Virus record (IMG/VR): IMGVR_UViG_3300029448_000420
Location: 1 to 24,595 of that record
DNA from: a virus
DNA: 24,595 nucleotides
Reading direction: 5' to 3' (one strand)
Shown: positions 4,571 to 14,604 of the stretch, one piece after another
Layout: every line of letters starts with the position of its first letter
How positions within the stretch are numbered: position 1 is the stretch's first letter
Notes under the pieces: generated by a model
What the model was told of the DNA's origin: nothing
Seen by the model: only the letters and a program-made list of their open reading frames with translations
Databases searched by the model: none
Position numbers and translations under genes: made by a program

Positions 4571-4858
4571 ATGGCCAAACAACGTATGGCTGGTCAAAAA
4601 TTAAAAGAAAGTTTGACCCCAAATAAACCACGTCGTACTCCAAATCATCCGACAAAGTCACACGTCGTTTTAGCAAAAGAAGGCGGAAAAGAAAAGCTCA
4701 TTCGGTTTGGCCAGCAAGGTGTTAAAGGTGCTGGCAAAAATCCTAAGTCAGCAAAAGATAAAGCACGTAAGAAATCCTATTACGCACGTCATAACGCACA
4801 AGATTCCAATCCAAGCAAGATGTCTGCTCGGTATTGGTCACACAAAGTGAAATGGTGA
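4571..4858 (+). CDS. Small basic phage protein, 95 aa
   Basis: A Lys/Arg-rich protein (MAKQRMAGQKLKESL ... KSAKDKARKKSYYARH ... MSARYWSHKVKW). The motif with repeated Lys, HVVLAKEGGKEKLIRFGQQG and YYARH is one I associate with a conserved family in marine cyanophages (possibly DUF6321). The charge suggests nucleic-acid binding or a virion-internal role, which is inference. Its TGA overlaps the ATG of the peptidase gene (TGATG), pointing to coupling. Confidence 0.75.
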   Translation: MAKQRMAGQKLKESLTPNKPRRTPNHPTKSHVVLAKEGGKEKLIRFGQQGVKGAGKNPKSAKDKARKKSYYARHNAQDSNPSKMSARYWSHKVKW

Positions 4859-6438: not shown

Positions 6439-7206
6439 ATGTTGGTTTCAAGACTTTGCAAACGGACGCTGTCATTCAAGCGTTTGTCGGACTCCACCCA
6501 ATACGGATGGAGAAACGCTTCAAAACATTTTGAGAATGTAGACACTTCCAAAATTGACAGGGAGTTCTGCGTTGATCACAGGTGCGAACTCCTTGAGTGT
6601 GACTACAAGGAAGGTTATGTTCGAACACAACTTGGCTACCTCGGTTCGATGTGGGAACGCGGGGTAGAAATGGGAATTCTTGAATGGAATCCTTGGCGTG
6701 GAATGCTTAAGGGATTAGGTCGGTCTAAGAAAAAGTATCCACATAAAAAATTTGATCACTTCCACAGGTTCCATGACGATCCACTGTTCATGGCAGTCTG
6801 GCTACACGGCTTCAGGATCAGTGAAGCGGCCTGCTTGCTGCCGGAAGATTTTGTGACCGCCGCTGATAAACCGTATATCAACATCGAGCACAATCATATT
6901 CGTAAATGTAAAAACGAATACACGCAGAGGCAGGTGCCAATACACCCTGCGTATTTTAAATTTATTGAAAAATTCCCTTTTACAACAAACCCTAATGCAG
7001 GTGATTACTTTAGTCGCAAGCTGAAGAAACACACAGGCATATCAGCTCACGGTATTCGCCATTCGTTTATCACTCGTATGCGACAAGCAGGAATTGAATA
7101 CAGCATTGCCATGGGAATTGTTGGACACAAACCTAAAGGCATGACCGCTGAATATGGCGATGTCTTACTGGAGGACATGGCTGAACAGATTGAGAAAGTT
7201 AGTTGA
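6439..7206 (+). CDS. int: Tyrosine recombinase (phage integrase)
   Basis: A 255-aa protein with all tyrosine-recombinase catalytic residues visible: R126 in GFRISEA, a Lys in the beta-turn at 156/158 (RKCKNEYTQRQVP), H204-x-x-R207 in HGIRHSF, H230 in GIVGHKPKG and the nucleophile Y239 in TAEYGD. The N-terminal part (about 1-95) would be the core-binding domain; the protein is shorter than lambda Int and lacks an obvious arm-binding domain. It would catalyse site-specific integration or excision, usually at a tRNA gene. Repeats suitable as accessory sites lie on both sides. No Shine-Dalgarno is evident before the ATG. No repressor gene is visible in the window, so whether the phage is truly temperate is open. 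Confidence 0.9.
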   Translation: MLVSRLCKRTLSFKRLSDSTQYGWRNASKHFENVDTSKIDREFCVDHRCELLECDYKEGYVRTQLGYLGSMWERGVEMGILEWNPWRGMLKGLGRSKKKYPHKKFDHFHRFHDDPLFMAVWLHGFRISEAACLLPEDFVTAADKPYINIEHNHIRKCKNEYTQRQVPIHPAYFKFIEKFPFTTNPNAGDYFSRKLKKHTGISAHGIRHSFITRMRQAGIEYSIAMGIVGHKPKGMTAEYGDVLLEDMAEQIEKVS

Positions 7207-9470: not shown

Positions 9471-9923
9471 ATGGGTATCGCTGAAGACTGGAGTGAACTT
9501 CTATTCTCTCTAGATTGCCTTTCTAAAGGCTCTGCTAAGCGCAAGTTCCGTAAATCAATTAAATATGGTTGGGGCGGATTGTGCTGTTACTGTCGCTCCG
9601 AAAGAGCAACAACACTAGATCACGTCAAACCAAAGTCAAAAGGGGGAAGTAGTTTAAGAAGCAATTTGCTTCCTGCCTGCCAGACATGTAATCACTCTAA
9701 AGGGTCAGAAAACTGGCTAACATGGTTTGAAAGGCAAACATTTTATAACAGTATTGCCAAAGAACTTATTGAAGAGTGGATTTCAAACAAAAGATTTATC
9801 GAGGAGGAATTAGATGACCGCGAAACTATCAATAGAACAGAGGTTTGCTCTTACACGAGCCCGTTACGAAGTTTCGAGGATGAGCCGTCCAGCCTTGGAA
9901 AGGACAGCCTTGCGCTTGCTTAA
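9471..9923 (+). CDS. HNH endonuclease
   Basis: The HNH core is complete: CCYC (zinc Cys 38 and 41), TTLDHVKPKSKGG (D50 H51), LRSNLLPACQTCNHSKG (N65, Cys 70 and 73, N74-H75). Such nucleases nick or cut DNA and in phages are often free-standing homing endonucleases. It is 150 aa; the last 36 residues, beyond about 9814, are read through the start of the next gene in another frame and look unstructured, as if the ORF had been extended by loss of an earlier stop. Its position directly before the NblA-like gene suggests insertion there. Confidence 0.85.
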   Translation: MGIAEDWSELLFSLDCLSKGSAKRKFRKSIKYGWGGLCCYCRSERATTLDHVKPKSKGGSSLRSNLLPACQTCNHSKGSENWLTWFERQTFYNSIAKELIEEWISNKRFIEEELDDRETINRTEVCSYTSPLRSFEDEPSSLGKDSLALA

Positions 9924-10137
9924 AACACGAATGGAGCAAAAGAATGGTGTCCAAGAGACGTTAGCTGCAAACGGTATTATTTTTAAAATCGACGAGCAGC
10001 AAGGCGGCTTGCCGGAGATCATTAGTGAAGAAACCTTCATGGATCTACTGACACTTACTGATGAGTTGCCTACAACAATCGATGAAGATGATTATGAAAA
10101 CGACGACCTGGACGATGATGGCCTCATGATTATTTAA
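9814..10137 (+). CDS. nblA: NblA-like phycobilisome-degradation adaptor with acidic tail
   Basis: A strong Shine-Dalgarno (GAGGAGG) precedes the ATG at 9814. Residues 5-24 (LSIEQRFALTRARYEVSRMS) match my recollection of cyanobacterial NblA proteins, LSLEQQF...QVSQMS, with identical spacing of L-S-E-Q-F and V-S-x-M-S; a second amphipathic helix with a QETL motif follows with about one residue offset. NblA (about 60 aa) forms helical-hairpin dimers and links phycobiliproteins to the Clp protease. Cyanophage nblA genes are known. This protein is longer (107 aa): residues 60-107 form a strongly acidic tail not found in NblA. It overlaps the HNH gene by 110 nt. The call rests on an eye alignment, so it remains provisional. 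Confidence 0.5.
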   Translation: MTAKLSIEQRFALTRARYEVSRMSRPALERTALRLLKTRMEQKNGVQETLAANGIIFKIDEQQGGLPEIISEETFMDLLTLTDELPTTIDEDDYENDDLDDDGLMII

Positions 10138-11766: not shown

Positions 11767-13071
11767 TTAGTGTGTACTAGCCCAATTATTGCCATGATCA
11801 GCAGCTGCTGTAATTGGAACACGGAAGTTATAGTAATCGCCAGCTTTAGGAGCAGCAGCTTCTAATAGATGTTTGACGCGATCAACTTCTGAAGGTATAA
11901 CAGATAACTGCACTTCATCGTGCACATATGCACACCTTGTGTAGTCAGTGTCGTATGTAAGACCTGCTGCATCAAGCAACTCTTGACCTATTACCACCCA
12001 ACGCTTACTGATGATGGCACCTGCGGACTGTAAAAGATAATTGAGCGAGGCGTGTTCAGCAGTACAGAACACAGGCCTCCCATCAAGAGCCCTAAGACGA
12101 CCACAACCTCTAACTCGTTCTTTAACTGCATTAATCAGTGGCTCCAAACCAGGAATAGCGTCAAGAAATTTACGGCGCAGCTCTTGACCTAGCTGCTTTT
12201 TCTGTGCATCAGAAAGTTCAGGATGGAAACTATGACCAAGTTTCTGATCACCAGCACCATATATAAACGCATACGTAAGGGTCTTGACCTCCTTACGCGT
12301 GCATCCTACGCGATCAGCGTTTTGTTGATGAATGTCTCCATTAAGTAAAACATCTGCATAAGCGCCATTATCAAACCGTGCGAGATAATGTCCAAGTGCC
12401 CTGAGCTCTAGCTGTTCAAGGTCTGCACCTACAAGAATGTGACCTTGATGAGGGACAAAGAGCTCCCGTGCCCATGGTGCGCTCACGACCTGTCCAAGAT
12501 TCGGACCACGGTGCGCATTTCGTCCCGTTTGTGTCGCAAGTGTGCAGCTGTGGTGAATGCAACCGTCGCCCTCAATAGAGTTGAACCAAGAGTTGGTTCC
12601 CTCCGACAGTTGCCCTAACCACTTCTGCAATGTAAGAAGTCGAATAAACATCTCACATTCATCATGAAGTAATTGATTCCCTTGAGACAAAGCAGCGTCC
12701 CGCATCTCGCCAATAGTTGCTTCGTCAACCTTGGGCTTACCAGTGTTAGTAACCTTTGTAAAACGAGCACCGCGAAAAGTTTGAAGTGCCCATGCAATGT
12801 TTTGACGAGACGTTGGATTGAAGTCAATAAGTCTTGTCATTGGCGCACCTGCTACATAACCCTTCTTTTTATCAGCACGCTTAGGAGTAAAAACTTTACC
12901 GGGTACATACTTATAAACGGAAGTAATGCGTTGAGATAATGCGTCGAACTCTTCTTGAAGTTCTGAGCGAACGCGAATAGCAGCATCCATGTCAAAGCGA
13001 AAACCTGAAGCTTCTTGCTGAGACATGATTTCAGCTACTTGCATTTCTAGTTTGACGTAATCAGCAATCAT
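11767..13071 (-). CDS. T7-type family A DNA polymerase, polymerase domain only
   Basis: A 434-aa protein that aligns with T7 gp5 from just after its exonuclease domain to the C-terminus. Motif A: LVGADLEQLELRALGHY (catalytic D217). Motif B: RKEVKTLTYAFIYGAGD (R259, K263, Y267). Motif C: YVHDEVQL (H384 D385 E386). All catalytic residues are present. The thumb has YVAGAP and FNPTSRQN as in T7, but the segment before them, corresponding to the thioredoxin-binding loop, is far shorter than in T7. The 3'-5' exonuclease is a separate gene 14 bp upstream, in a different frame with stops between, so the polymerase is genuinely split. No Shine-Dalgarno precedes the ATG at 13071. Confidence 0.93.
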   Translation of the reverse strand: MIADYVKLEMQVAEIMSQQEASGFRFDMDAAIRVRSELQEEFDALSQRITSVYKYVPGKVFTPKRADKKKGYVAGAPMTRLIDFNPTSRQNIAWALQTFRGARFTKVTNTGKPKVDEATIGEMRDAALSQGNQLLHDECEMFIRLLTLQKWLGQLSEGTNSWFNSIEGDGCIHHSCTLATQTGRNAHRGPNLGQVVSAPWARELFVPHQGHILVGADLEQLELRALGHYLARFDNGAYADVLLNGDIHQQNADRVGCTRKEVKTLTYAFIYGAGDQKLGHSFHPELSDAQKKQLGQELRRKFLDAIPGLEPLINAVKERVRGCGRLRALDGRPVFCTAEHASLNYLLQSAGAIISKRWVVIGQELLDAAGLTYDTDYTRCAYVHDEVQLSVIPSEVDRVKHLLEAAAPKAGDYYNFRVPITAAADHGNNWASTH

Positions 13072-13085
13072 TGTTGGTTAATGGA

Positions 13086-13613
13086 TTATTCGTAAGTACT
13101 CATCCGACGCATGAGCATTTGATAAAGCTTGTATGTAACTTCAGTATCCTGAATACAGTAATCAAGCATTTCAGGCGTATATTCTTTCCAAGATTCTTTG
13201 TCTTCACCGAAGTCTCCTTTAAAGCACTGAAGACGATAACCCCAAGCTTTGAGGCTATGACGACCGTATAGACGCTGAGGCATTCCTTCTGGACGCCGCT
13301 CGTAGTCTCTATCCTCAATTTTTGGATAAAATAATCTACTCATGATAAGCGTATCAATAATTTCACCAGTAGGATTGAAGTCTGGATACTGCTCTTTAAT
13401 CAAAGGAATGTCATAGCCAATAATGTTATGACCAATAAGCACATCTGCACGTTCAAGAGTTTTAATACCTTGAAGAATAGTGCGCTCAGGCAAATGGTCA
13501 AATACTTCGGGCTCAGCTGTATCGGCTACATTACGCACAACAATGCAATGCATCTTAGAACCACGTCTAAGTAAGCCGGTACTTTCAATATCAAACAGAA
13601 GCTCAGTCTTCAC
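13086..13613 (-). CDS. DnaQ-like 3'-5' exonuclease, split proofreading domain of a T7-type polymerase
   Basis: With GTG at 13613 the protein starts MKTELLFDIESTGLL, exactly where T7 gp5 begins (MIVSDIEANALL); this gives 175 aa and an 11-nt overlap with the deaminase-like gene. An ATG at 13649 (187 aa) is the alternative. Exo I is DIE, Exo II lies in GHNIIGYDIPL (N and D), and Exo III is YCIQDTEV (Tyr and Asp), so all four acidic ligands are present. T7-like features continue: IDTLIMSRLFYP and GRHSLKAWGYRL. It should work in trans with the polymerase encoded next, giving proofreading as a two-subunit enzyme. Confidence 0.9.
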   Translation of the reverse strand: MKTELLFDIESTGLLRRGSKMHCIVVRNVADTAEPEVFDHLPERTILQGIKTLERADVLIGHNIIGYDIPLIKEQYPDFNPTGEIIDTLIMSRLFYPKIEDRDYERRPEGMPQRLYGRHSLKAWGYRLQCFKGDFGEDKESWKEYTPEMLDYCIQDTEVTYKLYQMLMRRMSTYE

Positions 13614-14154
13614 CGAAGTTTTCGTCTGAGGTTTTTGGATCGTAGTCATCTGGTTTAAATGGATTGGAGTCTGGATAGAGTTCTTCGTCGATTTCTTGGT
13701 CAAGTGCTTTGTTGACGGCAAATCTTGGATCTTCATTATCATGAAATGGTTCAATTGCAATAGATAGTTCGCGAGCTAATCGACCAGCTCTACGGAATTC
13801 ATATTTGTAATATGGCTCCCACTGATGAGCAGTGATGATTATTTTTTTAATGCCCATCACATGGCATTGAAAGATAGAAGCGGAAAAAGGATATCGAGTG
13901 GTATAGATAACAGCTCCAGCCATTGGAGTTCCACGTTTAGCAGCTGCAGCAATGGCATAACAGACACAATCGATTTCAATGCCACTGCTTGTTAAAAGGC
14001 TGCGTCCATCTCCAAGTATTTCGCGATCGCGGACAACGATGCATCCTCCTGGTGCGGTCGGATGAGTAGAAGCAGCGCCAACGGCTCTAGCTAAACTCAT
14101 AAAATATTGTTCTTTATTTTTAATGTATGTAGGATCACCTTGTGGGCTAGACAT
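13603..14154 (-). CDS. dCMP/cytidine-deaminase-fold protein lacking the zinc and catalytic motifs
   Basis: 183 aa from ATG 14154 (a GTG two codons upstream is possible). The fold signature is clear: GGCIVVRDREILGDGRS, AIAAAAKRGTPMAGAVIYTT and MGIKKIIIT match the deoxycytidylate deaminase family. The catalytic HAE is read here as D-C-V (D62 to V64, within IDCVCYAI) and the PCxxC zinc motif as P-F-S-A-S (from P89), so none of the three standard zinc ligands nor the catalytic Glu remains. I checked both stretches against the nucleotides. Active members make dUMP for thymidylate synthase; this one is likely an inactive homologue with a regulatory or binding role. The acidic C-terminal tail overlaps the exonuclease gene. 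Confidence 0.75.
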   Translation of the reverse strand: MSSPQGDPTYIKNKEQYFMSLARAVGAASTHPTAPGGCIVVRDREILGDGRSLLTSSGIEIDCVCYAIAAAAKRGTPMAGAVIYTTRYPFSASIFQCHVMGIKKIIITAHQWEPYYKYEFRRAGRLARELSIAIEPFHDNEDPRFAVNKALDQEIDEELYPDSNPFKPDDYDPKTSDENFGED

Positions 14155-14190: not shown

Positions 14191-14604
14191 ATGAGTCAAA
14201 TAGATGTGAGTCAAATGGATTACAAAAAGTTCTGCTATGAGTACGACAAATTCGATGAATACATGAAAAATTTTAGAGAAGAAAATCCTGAATTAACCAC
14301 CGACTCTTCTTCTGAGAAACTGACTTTCAGCAAGTTAGAGCATAAGCACGATACAAACGATGCATGGTTGGAGCTAGGTAAAAAGAATGACATGATTCAA
14401 AACCCGGCTCATTACACCGGAGGGAAAACAGAAGCTATTGATATTATTGAAGATGCTATCTCTCATGCCTCAAGTGTAGAGTCTGGCTTTCTACAAGGTC
14501 AAGTTTTGAAATACATGTTGAGAATGTGGCTAAAAAACAATCCATTGGAAGATGCAAAGAAAGCACAGTGGTATCTAACAAGGTTGATTAAGCAAGTGCG
14601 ATAA
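14191..14604 (+). CDS. DUF3310 protein
   Basis: 137 aa. The C-terminal half carries the DUF3310 pattern: MIQNPAHYTGGKTEAIDIIE, GFLQGQVLKYMLRMWLKNNP, EDAKKAQWYLTRLI. The family is widespread in phages and of uncertain function, sometimes called nucleotide kinase-like. The N-terminal 60 residues are a charged extension. It is the only + strand gene in the minus-strand replication block and starts 36 bp from the divergent deaminase-like gene, so both promoters must share that small gap. A hairpin follows its stop. Confidence 0.85.
   Translation: MSQIDVSQMDYKKFCYEYDKFDEYMKNFREENPELTTDSSSEKLTFSKLEHKHDTNDAWLELGKKNDMIQNPAHYTGGKTEAIDIIEDAISHASSVESGFLQGQVLKYMLRMWLKNNPLEDAKKAQWYLTRLIKQVR

Follow-up and report, generated by a model that had tools for sequence, protein, structure and literature searches.

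The window analysed here, i.e., the 24,595 nt of virus record IMGVR_UViG_3300029448_000420 (positions 1 to 24,595), harbours a gene for a 107-aa protein (9814..10137, + strand) that most probably encodes a phage NblA, an adaptor for phycobilisome degradation, with its activity being extrapolated from characterised NblA proteins. This identity, already put forward in a preliminary description of the DNA, is supported by the agreement of profile searches, an ungapped core alignment, predicted helices and a cyanophage context. The open reading frame extends from an ATG at 9814 to a stop at 10135–10137, coinciding exactly with the gene first delimited there. A putative ribosome-binding site (GAGGAGG, 9801..9807, +) lies 5´ of the ATG, within the preceding HNH gene, and a GAGGA-type motif was retained in most relatives, which were found at 64 IMG/VR loci.

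The NblA domain comprises residues 4–50 (9823..9963, +) and covers positions 1–47 of the 50 in the Pfam profile PF04485. The search against this profile suggested in the preliminary description did return NblA, with 24 bits (E 5.6e-5, residues 4–50) for the single protein and 25 bits in a six-frame search, the latter being counted as over the cut-off of 25; the match was therefore obtained, but the single-protein score sits right at the Pfam cut-off. Among related records, 16 out of 26 contained a PF04485 match over the cut-off. All 49 non-redundant relatives matched NblA, with any other Pfam family being matched by two of them at most. When a profile of these 49 sequences was searched against the PDB, the solved NblA 3cs5 ranked first (E 1.2e-4), with all the rest at E 0.1 or worse; Diaphanous protein matches, found at E 0.1 and worse, were judged to be due to chance. 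Profile-profile comparison of the family with five known NblA proteins (three from solved structures, plus those of phages Ma-LMM01 and PaV-LD) gave a probability of 82% (E 1e-5) over 43 ungapped columns. Moreover, none of 20,000 shuffles of the protein reached the real score against the five-NblA profile (14.6 bits vs. 12.2 bits for the best shuffled sequence). The protein scored 17.8 bits against the NCBIfam equivalog model PhycobilmeDegNblA (NF045916), whose cut-off of 100 bits it did not reach; it belongs to the wider Pfam family and lies outside this narrow model.

Identity between the window protein and canonical NblA amounts to about 15–29%, and the ungapped alignment of the two shares L5-S6-x-E8-Q9-x-F11, V20, M23-S24, M40 and N44. 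The pattern L-[ST]-x-E-Q-x-F, V, [MI]-S, M, N is common to the cyanobacterial proteins (PF04485; 3cs5, 2q8v, 1ojh) and to the window protein with the same spacing, within an ungapped core of ~47 residues that forms a short and then a long helix in both. The exact spacing of the core noted initially was thus borne out, at a level above chance in the profile searches and shuffles. The solved NblA monomer is made up of a short helix followed by a long one. AlphaFold predicted helices at residues 7–21 and 25–52 in the full protein (mean pLDDT 62) and at 7–21 and 25–53 in the core alone (mean pLDDT 85.6), in agreement with this two-helix arrangement. Foldseek and VIA-align, applied to the whole model and to the core, yielded weak helical matches and no NblA; with only 54 helical residues, the pair is too small for the missing match to settle the fold. 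A second weak NblA match (14.9 bits), in a 49-kb contig of nearly the same sequence as the window, lacked the core motif and was dropped, and no NblA was found in a plasmid search.

Cyanobacterial NblA stops at ~60 residues, whereas the window family adds a further 54 conserved, acidic residues. The preliminary description had pointed to an Asp/Glu-rich tail of 48 residues; an acidic extension does exist, but it comprises about 54 residues (54–107) and is strongly rich in Asp and Glu only in the last 25. Its first part (residues 54–82, 9973..10059, +; GIxFKIDExQxGLPEIISEETFxxLL) is of mixed composition, is conserved nearly as well as the acidic end, and contains G54, K58, P67, E68, I69, S71, E72, T74, F75 and L79 as invariant positions in 49 sequences. 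The C-terminal segment (residues 83–107, 10060..10134, +) has 12 Asp/Glu and no Lys/Arg, a net charge of −12, and E95, D98, D102 and L104 invariant in the same set, with a conserved stretch near the end of approximately E-x-D-D-L-x-x-D-G-L. Overall, the window protein combines a core of net charge +6 with a tail of −17. A query with the core only, which gives tailed proteins no advantage, hit 80 loci, and the tail was present in all 78 complete genes among them (net charge −14 to −19); the remaining two were a truncated 67-residue frame and a broken frame. The pN/pS values were 0.19–0.20 for the core, 0.24 for residues 54–82 and 0.32 for the last 25 residues; synonymous sites were saturated, so that only the order of these values is meaningful, and they place the tail under purifying selection. 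Given its presence in 78/78 relatives from the core-only query, the tail genuinely belongs to the protein and is maintained by selection; it is not the product of read-through. A PDB search with the tail alone retrieved only antibody and other chance matches.

The 3´ end of an HNH endonuclease gene (9471..9923, +; PF01844/PF14279, phrog_2214) shares 110 bases with nblA in a different frame. An HNH match was detected in 67 of 68 loci, and the out-of-frame overlap, ranging from 53 to 182 bases, recurred in the same relative frame in 48 out of 49 relatives. This conservation suggests that translation of nblA is probably coupled to that of the upstream HNH gene.

With regard to the phage itself, the preliminary description had listed a T7-type polymerase and an integrase. 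The integrase was corroborated as a tyrosine recombinase (6439..7206, +; PF00589, phrog_1). The polymerase is a DNA polymerase I of the cyanopodovirus kind, split over two genes (11767..13760, −; phrog_15971/phrog_17), and inspection of the window revealed no RNA polymerase. Its polymerase part (11767–13071) is 44–46% identical to those of marine cyanopodoviruses, and its exonuclease part (13086–13760) was assigned by position and by a DNA match adjoining the NATL1A-7 polymerase. The genome also encodes a VapE-like helicase-primase (PF05272, 17163–19388), which together with the cyanopodovirus-type polymerase makes up a mixed replication module.

Members of the psbA/psbD family occurred in 17 out of 26 related IMG/VR records, and hli-like matches (E ≤ 0.001, mostly under the family cut-off) in 17 of the 23 related records searched. 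For the psbA of one related contig, the nearest sequences were those of Synechococcus phages (76–79% DNA identity). The terminase encoded on the 49-kb contig shares 55% identity with its counterpart in Synechococcus phage S-EIV1, the matches that follow being near 24%, and the same contig also carries a PHROG ‘major head protein’. Polymerase and terminase were both nearest to phages of Synechococcus and Prochlorococcus, and S-EIV1-like membership is indicated by the related terminase together with two neighbour genes kept around the NblA-like gene. On the similarities of polymerase, psbA and terminase, the window is assigned as part of the genome of an S-EIV1-like marine cyanophage. From this cyanophage context, the host is probably Synechococcus, a phycobilisome bearer; the phycobilisome-bearing host expected from the outset is consistent with psbA in related contigs and with the cyanophage-type polymerase and terminase. 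Neither a tRNA nor any Rfam family was found in the window, leaving no attachment site by which to name the host. Non-photosynthetic bacteria were rejected as hosts, the gene-bearing genome contigs being short fragments judged to be mis-binned phage DNA; fragments of the lineage that are probably mis-binned lie inside published metagenome bins of non-photosynthetic taxa (loci L083, L084, L085 and L086). Also on the 49-kb contig is a gene for a sigma-70 factor comprising regions 1.2 to 4 (L080:11898-12833; PF00140, PF04542, PF04539, PF04545), which may redirect host transcription, and similar genes were present in the other long contigs as well.

S-EIV1 itself encodes a 106-aa ‘hypothetical protein’ (AHV82245.1, S-EIV1 73902-74222) that, as a single sequence, matched NblA below threshold (17.4 bits). 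Combined with relatives from 31 viral contigs, it aligned with canonical NblA with a probability of 93% (E 3.8e-7) over 49 ungapped columns. It is flanked by homologues of the window ORFs 4571-4858 (49%) and 14191-14604 (51%). Direct profile comparison of the window family with the S-EIV1 group was weak (22%, E 0.001, 54 ungapped columns). Both groups have an ungapped core, an acidic tail and a common gene neighbourhood, whereas in the S-EIV1 group the EQ pair is gone from an otherwise retained core motif, and the middle segment of the tail is shorter. On these sequence features, AHV82245.1 and the window gene are read as orthologues. We found no record that calls AHV82245.1 NblA; its link to the tailed NblA may be unreported, and the same may hold for the conservation of the acidic tail across the family.

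By analogy with characterised NblA, the window protein would be a small adaptor of two helices, expected to work as a dimer, which during infection binds the phycobiliproteins in the antenna of the host and passes them to the host ClpC protease, whereby phycobilisomes would be dismantled. NblA is known to bring phycobiliprotein to ClpC (PMC7966870), and a passage of PMC9602691 describes phycobilin loss in S. elongatus upon expression of a marine viral nblA; from its homology to NblA, the window protein should likewise cause phycobilin loss in infection. As for the tail, we favour a candidate tuning or docking arm. Its most likely role would be that of a flexible negative arm beside the positively charged core that tunes the adaptor, possibly by contacting the ClpC protease or phycobiliprotein, by restraining the basic core in a form of self-regulation, or by affecting adaptor turnover. 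A more specific version, which we consider unlikely, takes the tail as a second working module whose conserved end (approximately E-x-x-D-L-x-x-D-G-L) would dock on host ClpC or another host factor, much as further adaptors of AAA+ proteases do through a tethered docking peptide, and would thereby provide the lineage with an antenna-degradation adaptor of its own that is more efficient or redirected.

Two other explanations depart further from a phage NblA that degrades the antenna. The protein could descend from NblA and no longer degrade phycobilisomes, steering host Clp to other targets or blocking host NblA as a heterodimer partner, with the acidic tail as the carrier of the new function. 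Such a change would fit a tail whose conservation almost equals that of the core and whose charge is the opposite, as well as the S-EIV1 group, which lacks the EQ pair yet keeps the rest of the core and the acidic tail. Nevertheless, the window group retains the canonical core residues without gaps, and phycobilin loss does follow from the marine viral NblA that has been tested to date, as stated in a passage of PMC9602691, so that we regard this explanation as quite improbable.

Still further down the scale, at a very slight probability, the protein would not be NblA at all, and an unrelated helical protein, e.g., a virion or DNA-mimic regulatory protein, would resemble the motif by chance. 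The borderline single-sequence score, the missing fold-level match and the proneness of short, helical, acidic proteins to weak matches leave some room for this. It is hard to reconcile, however, with NblA being matched by 49/49 relatives and hardly any other family, with the PDB profile search and the shuffles, and with the cyanophage context, all of which argue for the NblA assignment.

Viral NblA is already known, including from uncultured marine cyanophages, and the window gene is not new in kind; its novelty falls short of what the preliminary description implied, phage NblA as such having been published. Flores-Uribe et al. 2019 reportedly described a lineage of uncultured marine cyanophages in which NblA occurs together with an integrase and a DNA polymerase that is split. 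The NblA of such a lineage was reportedly tested by Nadel et al. 2019, and later papers cite both works for phage nblA. The window likewise combines NblA, integrase and split DNA polymerase, and its lineage is probably the one reportedly described by Flores-Uribe et al. 2019. A passage in PMC12892361 gives an estimate that phage NblA cuts the light captured for photosynthesis in the oceans by up to 5% (Nadel et al. 2025), and it therefore matters which phages carry NblA and in what form. To these, the present family adds the S-EIV1-like lineage with psbA and integrase, where the gene is widespread and invariably carries the tail, and the cultured phage S-EIV1 provides a system where the tailed form is directly testable.

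The window NblA was finally compared with those of other phages. NblA of the freshwater cyanophages Ma-LMM01 and PaV-LD likewise matches PF04485 (52 and 45 bits, respectively), but is much closer to host NblA, has no tail and belongs to other phage lineages. Marine cyanopodoviruses (S-TIP37, S-RIP2, S-CBP1/3/4, P-SSP7) share the NblA core with the window protein, although their proteins are mostly of 60–90 aa and without the long acidic tail; profile-profile similarity between the two families was weak, and S-TIP37 NblA scored 28 bits against Pfam NblA. A search with the profile of the window family missed NblA in eight known phages; the Pfam profile recovered it in three of them. As in the window, the cyanopodovirus nblA shares bases with the 3´ end of the nuclease gene that precedes it and has a ‘nucleotide kinase’ gene nearby (4.4 kb downstream of nblA in the window), but the overlap partner is a T7-like exonuclease gene rather than HNH. 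In S-TIP37, this nblA (MH540083 12509-12703), overlapping the T7-like exonuclease gene, is unannotated in the record, and in several other cyanopodovirus records nblA is likewise unannotated or labelled ‘hypothetical’.
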